In this document: positions 59,717-63,981 of the stretch, piece by piece
How positions within the stretch are numbered: the stretch's first letter is position 1
Layout of the letters: each line of letters opens with the position of its first letter
Assembly: GCF_036327415.1 (NCBI RefSeq)
Contig: NZ_CP123961.1
Span: 992,001 to 1,056,000, forward strand
Length of the DNA stretch: 64,000 bases
Direction of reading: 5' to 3'
DNA from: Bartonella grahamii subsp. shimonis
GTDB lineage: Bacteria; Pseudomonadota; Alphaproteobacteria; Rhizobiales; Rhizobiaceae
Notes under the pieces: generated by a model
Seen by the model: only the letters and a program-made list of their open reading frames with translations
Databases searched by the model: none
What the model was told of the DNA's origin: nothing
Made by a program: the position numbers and the translations under genes

Positions 59717-60673
59717 ATGATACAATCGCATATTCGTCTGCTGATTATTGGCTCAGGTCCGGCTGGTTATACAGCGGCGATCTATGCAGCAAGAGCAATG
59801 CTTAAGCCGGTTTTGGTGACGGGCTTGCAGCAGGGTGGACAATTAACAATTACAACTGATGTTGAGAATTATCCAGGTTTTGCAGATCCCATTCAAGGAC
59901 CATGGTTGATGGAACAAATAGCAAAACAAGCTGAGAATATGGGGACAAAAATTGTCTATGATACAATTATAAAGGCTGATTTGTTGAAGTATCCTTTTGT
60001 CTTATATGGGGATTCAGGAACACAATATTCTTGTGATGCACTGATTATTACAACAGGAGCTCAAGCGCGCTGGCTTGGTTTAGAAAGTGAACAGACCTTT
60101 ATGGGCAGTGGTGTTTCCGCTTGTGCTACATGTGATGGCTTTTTTTACCGTGATAAGGACGTTATTGTCGTGGGAGGAGGAAATACGGCTGTTGAAGAAG
60201 CACTTTATTTATCGCATTTGGCTAAAAGTGTAAGTGTAGTTCATCGCCGAGATCATTTTCGGGCAGAAAAAATTTTGCAAGATAGGTTGCTTGCTTGCAA
60301 GAACGTACGTATTATTTGGGATCATGTGGTGGAAGAAATTATTGGTTTGCCAGCTCAAGATTCAATGGGGGCTGTTGTAACAGGGGCTCGTCTGAAAAAT
60401 GTTAAGACAGGCCACGAGATGAAAGTGAATGCAGAGGGCATATTTATTGCCATTGGGCATGATCCTGCTGTTTCTCTGTTTGAAGGACAGTTGAAACAAA
60501 AACGAGGCGGTTATTTATGGACAGCACCGGACTCAACAGCGACAAGTATTGCTGGTGTTTTTGCTGCTGGGGATGTAACAGATGCAACATTTCGCCAAGC
60601 TGTAACAGCTGCGGGAAGAGGATGTATGGCAGCGTTGGAAGCAGAACGGTTTTTGGATATACCTAAGCGTTAG
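59717..60673 (+). CDS. trxB: Thioredoxin-disulfide reductase
   Basis: FAD enzyme that reduces thioredoxin with NADPH. Of 318 residues: FAD-binding GSGPAGYTAAIYAAR at the N-terminus, redox CATCDG near residues 136-141, NADPH-binding GGGNTAVEEALYLSHLAK near 155, HRRDHFRAEK (NADP phosphate contact) and the C-terminal FAD motif GVFAAGDVTDATFRQAVTAAGRGCMAA. AAGGGG precedes the ATG. vtlR/lsrB follows after 42 bases. Confidence 0.97.
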   Translation: MIQSHIRLLIIGSGPAGYTAAIYAARAMLKPVLVTGLQQGGQLTITTDVENYPGFADPIQGPWLMEQIAKQAENMGTKIVYDTIIKADLLKYPFVLYGDSGTQYSCDALIITTGAQARWLGLESEQTFMGSGVSACATCDGFFYRDKDVIVVGGGNTAVEEALYLSHLAKSVSVVHRRDHFRAEKILQDRLLACKNVRIIWDHVVEEIIGLPAQDSMGAVVTGARLKNVKTGHEMKVNAEGIFIAIGHDPAVSLFEGQLKQKRGGYLWTAPDSTATSIAGVFAAGDVTDATFRQAVTAAGRGCMAALEAERFLDIPKR

Positions 60674-60715: not shown

Positions 60716-61621
60716 GTGGCGCCACCGTTGGATTGGGATAAGTTAAGGATTTTTCACGCTGCAGCAGAAGCGGGATCTTTTACGCATGCTGCTCAAAAAC
60801 TTCATTTATCTCAATCAGCCGTTTCACGACAGGTTTCGGCTTTAGAACAAGAGGTTGGGGTATCCTTATTTCAACGTCATGCGCGTGGTTTGATTCTTAC
60901 AGAACAGGGAGAAACTCTTTATCGTACAGCTCATGATGTTTTGATGAAGCTTGAAAGTGTACGTTTGCAATTAAGTGAAAGCTATGCAAAACCAACGGGG
61001 CACTTGCGTGTGACCTCGACTTTTGGAATGGGGGCAGGGTGGATTGCAGAGCGTATGCCAGAATTTCTTAGTCTTTATCCTGATATGCAGGTTCAGCTTT
61101 TGCTTTCCGATGAAGAGCTTGATTTGACAATGTGTCATGCGGATTGTGCTGTTCGCTTACATCAACCCCAACAACCTGATCTTATACAAAGAAAACTCTT
61201 TACAATTCATATGCATGTTTATGCTTCGGAAAAGTATATTGCAAATTATGGAAAGCCAAAAAAATTGTCTGATCTCGATGAGCATCGTATTATTTCGTTC
61301 GGTGAGCCTGTCCCACCTTATTTGTCTGGTTTAAATTGGTTGGAAAAGGCTGGTAGAAGTGATGGATCATTGCGCGTTTCAGTTCTACAAATCAACAATA
61401 TCATCTCAATAAAGAATGCGCTTATGCGTGATCTTGGGATTGCTGTGCTGCCTGATTATATCGTCAATAATGATGAGCATTTGGTGCGTCTTTTTCCTGA
61501 TATGGTTGATATTCCTTCTTTTGATACTTTTTTTTGTTATCCTTATAATTTAAAGAATTTGGCAAGGTTAAATGCTTTTCGAGATTATATTTTTTTAAAA
61601 GCCCGTCAGTGGTCTTTTTAA
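60716..61621 (+). CDS. lsrB: LysR-family regulator VtlR/LsrB
   Basis: A 301-residue LysR-type regulator starting at GTG 60716 after a GAGGTAG site. The winged helix-turn-helix is at about 6-65 (LRIFHAAAEAGSFTHAAQKL and HLSQSAVSRQVSALEQEVG); the effector domain follows. A LysR gene directly after trxB is the conserved position of LsrB (Sinorhizobium, redox and symbiosis) and VtlR (Brucella, virulence, activator of small RNA AbcR2). Cysteines in LTMCHADCAVRL (about 141-146) and FFCYPYN could serve redox sensing as reported for LsrB. Orthology is by context and general sequence. Confidence 0.85.
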   Translation: MAPPLDWDKLRIFHAAAEAGSFTHAAQKLHLSQSAVSRQVSALEQEVGVSLFQRHARGLILTEQGETLYRTAHDVLMKLESVRLQLSESYAKPTGHLRVTSTFGMGAGWIAERMPEFLSLYPDMQVQLLLSDEELDLTMCHADCAVRLHQPQQPDLIQRKLFTIHMHVYASEKYIANYGKPKKLSDLDEHRIISFGEPVPPYLSGLNWLEKAGRSDGSLRVSVLQINNIISIKNALMRDLGIAVLPDYIVNNDEHLVRLFPDMVDIPSFDTFFCYPYNLKNLARLNAFRDYIFLKARQWSF

Positions 61622-61993
61622 TATTAATGCCTTAATTTATAAGGAATAATTAACTGTTGTGCAACTTGAGATTCCCCTAATATTCTTTCGTTTCAAGTTT
61701 GCCCATATTGAATCAATTAAAACTATTCGTTGCACGTTAAAAGTGAAGGGAGGCCGCGTAGAGAAATCTTTTTGAAAAAAGTGATAAATGTTTTTTGTGA
61801 ATGCTAGAAAATGTGAGGGTTCTTGTATATTGAAAACTGGACAATCGTGTGATGGTGTAGCTTACATCTTTATATTTAATTTAAAGAGAGTGCTACATGA
61901 TGGAGACAAATTTAAAGCTATGTGTTTATTGCATAGCAGATACGCTTAAGTCTTTATTGTACTTTTTCTTATAAAATGACATAGAATATCATC
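61622..61993 (+). other. Spacer with degenerate repeat, tiny frame and small-RNA promoter
   Basis: It holds the degenerate repeat copy (61665-61790), then an ATG at 61897 opening a 25-codon frame (METNLKLCVYCIADTLKSLL, from the second ATG) with a weak ribosome site; I cannot say if it is translated. A promoter-like TTGTAC (61957-61962) and TAGAAT (61982-61987) with a long 19-base spacing precede the small RNA candidate. Confidence 0.45.
61665..61790 (+). repeat. Dispersed intergenic repeat, degenerate copy E
   Basis: CTTTCGTTTCAAGTTTGCCC, CATATTGAATCAATTAAAAC, GTTGCACGTTAAAAGTGA match the first two thirds of the family; the final block is changed to AGAGAAATC. Confidence 0.5.
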
Positions 61994-62112
61994 TCTTGAT
62001 TATGTTGCCTCCCATTGCATTTTCTTGAGTGTTCCCTTACGAAGATCTATCGGATTGATTTTATCTCTGAGGATTTTCCAAATTTGCCGGACATATGTCC
62101 GGCTTTTTTTTT
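61994..62112 (+). ncRNA. Candidate AbcR-type (alpha-r15) trans-acting small RNA
   Basis: About 119 bases from the position expected of a start behind TAGAAT to the end of a very strong terminator. The body has two C-rich anti-Shine-Dalgarno-like stretches, GCCTCCCATTGC (62007-62018) and GTGTTCCCTTACG (62029-62041). AbcR RNAs of Agrobacterium, Brucella and Sinorhizobium are of similar length, use CUCCC/UUCCC-type loops to block ABC-transporter mRNAs, and in Brucella AbcR2 depends on VtlR. Here it lies directly downstream of the vtlR/lsrB gene. Identification is by context and motifs; no covariance search was possible. Confidence 0.6.
62086..62112 (+). terminator. Strong intrinsic terminator of the small RNA candidate
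   Basis: GCCGGACATATGTCCGGC (62086-62103) is a perfect 18-base palindrome, followed by nine T (62104-62112). It is the strongest terminator in the window and no protein gene ends nearby on this strand. Confidence 0.92.
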
Positions 62113-62757
62113 ATTTTTGAAAAAGTCCCTAGAAATTGCAATATATGGGAAGGTGATAAGGAAAAAATTTCGAAACTTGTGGATCCCCAACAATTTTTTA
62201 AGAATACTAAAATTCAATGAGGAGTTTGAGGGAGATCTATCCCATTGTACCATAAAAGTCTGTCTTTTAGAGGCGTGATATAAAATATTTAAAATATTAT
62301 ACATGAAGTGCTTTTTATTAGAGTGTGAGGTGAATATTTAAGGCAGCTCTTGTTTATAAAGCCTATCAAGTAGTTATTAGATAAAACTTAAAGGAAACTG
62401 GATTGTTTACATAACGGATGGGAGGTGGCTTCTTCTTCATTTTAGGACGAAGAAGAAGCCGAGAAATAGAAAAGATCTGATTATAAGGGCAATTGTGTTT
62501 AAAAGTGCTTGGTCTTTTTTAGAGTTATAAATTGAATAGAAAAAGCAGAATAGGCTTTTCACCTCTCATAATAATAGACCGATTCATTTATTTGATTGCT
62601 AGATTTTTTTGATCTTTATCTACAGCCCCTATTGTTGTGTTTATTCATGGATATTTTTGCGGAATCGATTGATTCAGACCATGATACAGCTTCTGATAAT
62701 TTTTCGGATATACTGACATTCGGCAAAAAACGATCACAAGAGATGATATTAAAAATT
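62113..62757. other. Spacer with a perfect 12-bp hairpin
   Basis: 645 bases up to the end of the minus-strand aminotransferase gene. GGCTTCTTCTTC (62427-62438) pairs perfectly with GAAGAAGAAGCC (62449-62460) around a 10-base loop, with no T-tail on either strand. Nothing else stands out. Confidence 0.55.

Positions 62758-63981
<1,224 letters not shown>

Follow-up and report, generated by a model that had tools for sequence, protein, structure and literature searches.

The spacer downstream of the lysR gene of Bartonella grahamii subsp. shimonis holds a small RNA gene that sequence comparison confirms as a further member, in Bartonella, of the known AbcR/alpha-r15 family. Comparison with relatives shows a homologue of AbcR, about 122 nt long, which has a promoter region and a terminator of its own, occurs in a single copy and is situated beside the LysR gene. 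We give a probability of roughly 0.85 to the reading that the site is the Bartonella orthologue of AbcR, for which activation by LysR and repression of mRNAs would be expected from work on relatives. Genes of this type are ordinary; the genus is new, and the pattern in which the RNA has been lost is interesting. New here is its biology within the genus, namely one copy instead of several and decay or loss of the RNA on at least three branches that keep LysR.

RNAs of the AbcR family adjust how root symbionts and Brucella take up nutrients and interact with their hosts.

The open literature on Bartonella and AbcR, as far as its accessible text goes, describes no AbcR in Bartonella; subscription papers or the alpha-r15 survey cited by PMC3712013 may mention one. 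Nothing in the open literature joined Bartonella with ar15 or Bartonella with VtlR. Some other rhizobial sRNAs are described as reaching Bartonellaceae.

Locus layout and neighbouring genes

In the window, by which we mean the whole stretch of 64,000 nucleotides analyzed, the gene order is trxB-lysR-sRNA. The thioredoxin reductase gene trxB (59717..60673, plus strand; TIGR01292 at 387.7 bits, above cut-off) is followed on the same strand by lysR (60716..61621), which has a GTG start and encodes 301 amino acids with the Pfam domains HTH_1 and LysR_substrate. The sRNA gene begins 368 nt past lysR, and the spacer that holds it is closed by an aminotransferase gene (62758-63960) on the strand opposite to lysR. 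Place and similarity suggest that the LysR protein is the counterpart of VtlR/LsrB. Its best named matches among those listed were in B. grahamii ATCC 700132 and Bartonella sp. CM31XJBT, both at 99%, and its identity to the Brucella-named loci that were fetched was 69-72%. Between the sRNA and the aminotransferase gene, the spacer also contains a perfect inverted repeat with arms of 12 bases and a loop of 10 (62427-62460; GGCTTCTTCTTC / GAAGAAGAAGCC) and no clear T run.

The comparison set comprised at least 80 named loci with a LysR gene, 80 being among the matches listed. In 70 of these 80, trxB precedes lysR on the same strand by at most 200 nt; it was found 202-464 nt upstream, measured by match ends, in nine of the remaining ten, and in the last the contig ends. 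The RNA was present downstream of LysR in 61 of the 80 listed loci (the motifs are changed in L057 and L060), including five loci named Brucella or Ochrobactrum (L085, L089, L090, L091 and L094). Five Bartonella loci held a remnant or nothing, and the other 14 had no RNA within the flank examined (13 from Brucella, Ochrobactrum and other Rhizobiales, one from Tokpelaia). This last locus, from Candidatus Tokpelaia (L092), keeps LysR at 75% identity, and no recognisable sRNA was found in its spacer. The statement in the original prediction that AbcR genes lie near this LysR gene in relatives agrees with the order trxB-vtlR-abcR1-abcR2 described for A. tumefaciens (PMC7486931), which the window repeats with one abcR.

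Sequence and fold of the RNA

The RNA gene occupies 61990..62112 of the plus strand, with its first base at 61990 or 61991. It folds at -32.6 kcal/mol, compared with a mean of -20.29 for shuffled sequences (z -4.06), and none of 200 shuffles folded as well. Stem-loop 1 (61993..62029) presents the motif M1, CUCCCA (62009-62014), unpaired in an 11-nt loop; the motif M2, GUUCCC (62031..62036), is unpaired in the linker to stem-loop 2 (62041..62078); stem-loop 3 together with nine T (62086..62112) forms an intrinsic terminator. Two traits of AbcR/alpha-r15 (RF02345) are thereby present in the window RNA, the three stem-loops closed by an intrinsic terminator and the two unpaired motifs, resembling anti-Shine-Dalgarno sequences, in loop 1 and linker. 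The CCTCCC and TTCCC stretches and the terminal palindrome with nine T, all named in the original prediction, can be read directly in the letters: CCTCCCA at 62008-62014, TGTTCCC at 62030-62036, a perfect 18-base palindrome at 62086-62103 and nine T at 62104-62112. Together with the fold and the conservation of the unit, this bears out the proposal of an sRNA in the spacer downstream of the LysR gene. The left boundary of 61957 given in the original prediction did not stand, as conservation of the unit sets in before it, at a LysR-type dyad and box (61918-61943). Across 16 Bartonella sequences, the commonest letter reached 85-99% per 15-base bin from 61916 to 62110 and 53% in the next bin; the left border of this block is less clear because the other 15 rows have the end of lysR there.

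A continuum of sequences links the Bartonella RNAs with those of other Rhizobiales. Compared with the other aligned Rhizobiales, Bartonella has a longer stem-loop 2, and stem 1 of the window RNA pairs less well than that of its relatives. In the Rhizobiales alignment (32 sequences), 99.5% of cells pair compared with 33-46% in slid controls, a share that leans towards the structures because these were derived from the same alignments. Changes on both sides of a pair were found in eight of 20 pairs (shuffled mean 4.9; 2 of 500 shuffles as high) and in 48 cells (shuffled mean 14.4; 0 of 500), and further pair types showed no excess (18, shuffled mean 18.0). Compensatory changes extend to stem-loop 1 across Rhizobiales, to stem-loop 2 and to the stem of the terminator. 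Within the eubartonellae alone, compensatory changes occurred in five of 32 pairs and eight cells (shuffled means 1.6 and 2.1; 0 of 500 for each), further pair types stayed at the shuffled level, and stem-loop 1 had no compensatory pair, seven of its nine pairs being invariant. On most measures, compensatory pairing thus exceeded the shuffled and slid controls.

This pairing also bears on whether the region encodes a small protein instead of, or besides, an RNA. Open frames of 31, 41 and 87 amino acids on the same strand overlap it, but its base pairs covary and its conservation stops sharply at the terminator, and we regard a coding function as highly improbable. Scarcely more credible is that the unit merely terminates the lysR transcript or forms its 3' tail and is conserved for stopping transcription. 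It does lie downstream of lysR on the same strand and ends in a strong terminator; however, the conserved unit further includes an upstream promoter region, a LysR box and two stem-loops that are not part of the terminator, and it is homologous to a studied sRNA family by the covariance model R2 and through relatives that pass Rfam. Moreover, its distance from lysR ranges from 74 to 1626 nt over the 59 loci measured and its sequence is kept throughout, which makes it unlikely to be part of the lysR mRNA and favours an independent gene. The stretch between lysR and the RNA (61622-61917 in the window; loci L034-L047) measures 361-1626 nt in the grahamii, elizabethae and tribocorum groups and 74-120 nt in 15 other measured eubartonella loci; the frames in the long stretch reach at most 103 amino acids in both loci looked at.

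Assignment to the AbcR/alpha-r15 family

The original prediction had proposed a covariance search with the Rfam alpha-r15/AbcR model, and the outcome was mixed: ar15 (RF02345) was the top family on the spacer, and its score of 26.9 bits (61991-62107; E 0.002 in a search of 601 bases) fell under the cut-off of 40. At the gathering threshold, Rfam gave no match in the whole window. A genome-wide ar15 search did not list the sRNA locus and returned three weak places of at most 15.1 bits, a negative that we do not take as absence. Other families on the spacer, among them rseX, Esr41 and SorY, all scored under their own cut-offs and mostly cover the terminator hairpin. When 20 loci were scanned at the Rfam cut-off, nine were called ar15, namely B. 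tamiae, all three bee Bartonella and all five other Rhizobiales that have the RNA. None of the ten eubartonella loci passed (three of these, L057, L066 and L069, are altered, decayed or lost), and the Candidatus Tokpelaia locus failed as well.

As the window RNA lies below the Rfam cut-off, its homology was therefore tested independently of the Rfam model. For the covariance model R2 we took 22 syntenic homologues and used no eubartonella sequence; of the nine among them that had been through the Rfam scan, every one passes as ar15. In the window's own genome of 2.19 Mb, R2 found the sRNA site as its best match with 57.9 bits (E 1.4e-10, E-values of the models R1 and R2 being rough), and the next place reached 21 bits. 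Applied to 36 named loci (L034-L069), R2 scored at least 40 bits in 31, and the five that stayed below are those in which the RNA is decayed or lost. Common descent of the window RNA with accepted AbcR/alpha-r15 members is shown by R2; together with the synteny with relatives that pass the cut-off and the kept M1, M2, LysR box and terminator, this settles the homology. The proposed AbcR-type class is supported by the same evidence. We read the failure of the eubartonellae at the Rfam cut-off as a limit of the reach of that model, and the cut-off hides the AbcR family in the eubartonella loci scanned.

Sub-threshold matches to the cspA thermoregulator RNA (37-58 bits, cut-off 78) were seen on the minus strand at the right-hand ends of L057, L058, L066, L067 and L069, which are the five Bartonella loci that this mode of search covered.

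Presumed promoter and LysR box

The candidate LysR site (61918..61943, plus strand), recognised by comparison, consists of a T-N11-A dyad, ATGT-N7-GCAT (61920-61934), and the overlapping GCATAGCAGATAC (61931-61943), and precedes the RNA start by about 60 nt. For S. meliloti, the published LysR box spans -61 to -49 (PMC8844928). A relaxed form of the box was present in 50 of the 58 loci that have the sRNA or a remnant, including the window, always 59-60 nt before the start, and the T-N11-A dyad was present in 52 of the 58. The exact box, GCAT-N3-TG-N3-T, occurs in 13 of the 58 (B. tamiae and the bee types), and the window differs from it at two positions. The box goes with the motif: the relaxed form is absent in seven of the eight loci that lack M2 and present in 49 of the 50 that keep it, counts from related and hence non-independent genomes. 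Allowing at most one mismatch, the own genome holds 61 box-like places, the one at the sRNA included, compared with 19 for the reversed pattern. Of the 60 others, six were looked at individually: a long frame encloses five of them, one stands just past a gene, and none is a convincing promoter. One exact match (TGCATGGCTGATATGC; L114, 1355-1370) stands just after an ABC-permease-like gene and before a small minus-strand frame, with no clear promoter role.

The promoter is presumed to be ATTGTA (61956-61961) and ACATAG (61979-61984), separated by 17 nt (61956..61984, plus strand). Each hexamer agrees in three of six positions with the alphaproteobacterial consensus CTTGAC-N17-CTATAT (PMC8844928, PMC7717549) and is weak alone; relatives have the clearer CTTGAA-N17-GCATAT. 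A plain sigma-70 scan found promoter-like sites at chance level (nine, 11.0 expected). The predicted promoter-like pair consequently gains nothing from the scan and keeps its standing through reading by eye against the clearer promoters of relatives.

By analogy with A. tumefaciens, S. meliloti and Brucella, we infer that LysR (VtlR/LsrB) would bind the dyad at about -60 and activate transcription of the RNA. The RNA, aided by Hfq, may then expose M1 in loop 1 and M2 in the linker, and both motifs could pair with ribosome-binding regions and lower the translation or stability of target mRNAs. A gene for Hfq is present in the genome (110.8 bits).

Search for targets

At ten mRNA starts of substrate-binding proteins (three Pfam families), pairing with M1 or M2 was no better than at 47 window genes, and this limited scan of ten starts gave no support for targeting of transporter mRNAs. 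A 7-base complement of M1 before an ATG was found at 36 places. Thirty were examined and eight stand before a possible frame of at least 60 amino acids; read from sequence and with no family call, the eight include a potassium transporter, pyruvate phosphate dikinase, phage-like and unknown genes. The potassium transporter was dropped as a candidate since the motif lies upstream of the ATG within apparently conserved coding sequence, and the true start is probably further upstream. The 6-base complement of M2 occurs at 138 places; examination of 30 of them flagged a single frame, which belongs to a set of nearly identical repeated matches. No ABC transporter start was recognised at the places examined for either M1 (30 of 36) or M2 (30 of 138).

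Copy number

With the model R1 at an E-value of 0.01 or better, 57 of 61 Bartonella genomes had a match, which was single in 56 and double in one; the window genome had one. In the wider family (61 genomes including the own), 48 had a match, 13 of them with two or three. These copy-number searches used stricter filters, which lose weak matches. The AbcR family is said to be always multi-copy in Rhizobiaceae and Brucellaceae (PMC3712013). This trait is absent in the window genome; being a habit stated for other families, we did not count it as defining. In B. tamiae, a weak second sRNA match (L226, G003:C1:2194207-2194290; 30.6 bits, E 0.0027) is possibly a diverged second copy or a chance hit.

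Decay and loss of the RNA in Bartonella

The sRNA or a remnant of it adjoins LysR in 58 of 61 Bartonella genomes, with one locus per genome, and is missing in three; eight of 66 raw matches had been dropped as the other strand of the same place, the palindromic terminator included. LysR is free of stops in all 61 genomes. M1 is kept in 46 and M2 in 50 of the 58 loci. Four loci have M2 and lack M1, none has M1 alone and eight have neither; M2 thus outlasts M1 in the genus and is probably the main seed in Bartonella. Where decay is most advanced, pairing in the terminator stem is poor and the relaxed box is missing.

On a FastTree phylogeny of LysR DNA (57 rows, decay labels assigned by hand), the decayed and lost cases fall into three groups: melophagi (support 1.00), AR15-3 (0.99), and bacilliformis with one further genome (0.94). 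With a single gene, FastTree as the method and support below 0.9 at several deeper nodes, the order of the groups is not firm. The four M2-only cases sit on separate branches. At least three branches of this tree therefore saw the RNA decay in place or disappear, with LysR open in 61 of 61 genomes. In the abstract of an RNA-seq study of B. bacilliformis, ar15 is not among the highly conserved sRNAs named (PMC7717549), which is in line with loss there.

Such in-place decay in several lineages raises the question of whether the window RNA is itself a relic, an intact-looking AbcR gene that no longer regulates and stands at the first stage of the decay seen elsewhere in the genus. Its weaker stem 1, its Rfam score under the cut-off and the missing transporter target signal would fit. 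In contrast, M1, M2, box and terminator are kept in the clade of the window, and stem-loops 2 and 3 show compensatory changes among eubartonellae; taken together, these point to present selection. We consider a relic unlikely, if less so than a coding gene or a lysR tail. Counted against the reading as an AbcR orthologue are the sub-cut-off Rfam score, the weaker stem 1 with no compensatory pair among eubartonellae, the lack of extra pair types, the non-consensus box, the absence of a target signal at the ten starts scanned and the lack of promoter-like character in the six other box-like places inspected.

Returning to a working AbcR orthologue, we lean towards a VtlR-AbcR circuit with a single RNA seeded by M2, decayed or lost in the B. 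melophagi, AR15-3 and B. bacilliformis groups, and an intact LysR with an AbcR-independent duty. If this single-RNA circuit is real, LysR must have such a duty, since it stays intact where the RNA is gone, and the RNA-less lineages would be a natural experiment that separates the duties of LysR and AbcR. A single RNA with no redundant partner, and lineages that keep LysR and lack the RNA, make these duties testable. The AbcR circuit would then extend across a genus of small genomes, from bee gut types to blood-borne species.

Comparison with known systems

AbcR1 and AbcR2 of S. meliloti and A. tumefaciens likewise lie beside lsrB/vtlR and, in A. tumefaciens, after trxB as in Bartonella. They too have three stem-loops, motifs in loop 1 and linker, and a LysR box about 60 nt upstream (PMC8844928). 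In S. meliloti, longer forms of the motifs occupy the same places (PMC8844928), and these are incomplete in the RNA of the Bartonella window. Whereas S. meliloti and A. tumefaciens carry a tandem pair of abcR genes, the Bartonella window has one copy, and unlike its rhizobial counterparts the Bartonella RNA has a longer stem-loop 2 and falls below the Rfam cut-off.

Small Bartonella RNAs beside regulator genes have been described before. The RNAs Brt1-9 of B. henselae share this placement and are set apart by their published description as genus-specific RNAs of 194-203 nt upstream of XRE-type regulators (PMC5387305).

In Brucella abortus, AbcR1 and AbcR2 carry M1 as CUCCCA and M2 as GUUCCC in the same structural places as in Bartonella (PMC5461406). 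The Bartonella RNA differs from them in being single and adjoining the LysR gene, a place at which 13 loci of Brucella, Ochrobactrum and other Rhizobiales showed no RNA within the flank examined and five named Brucella or Ochrobactrum have it. M2 is the motif required in Brucella infection models (PMC5461406), and M2 is the more lasting motif in Bartonella.
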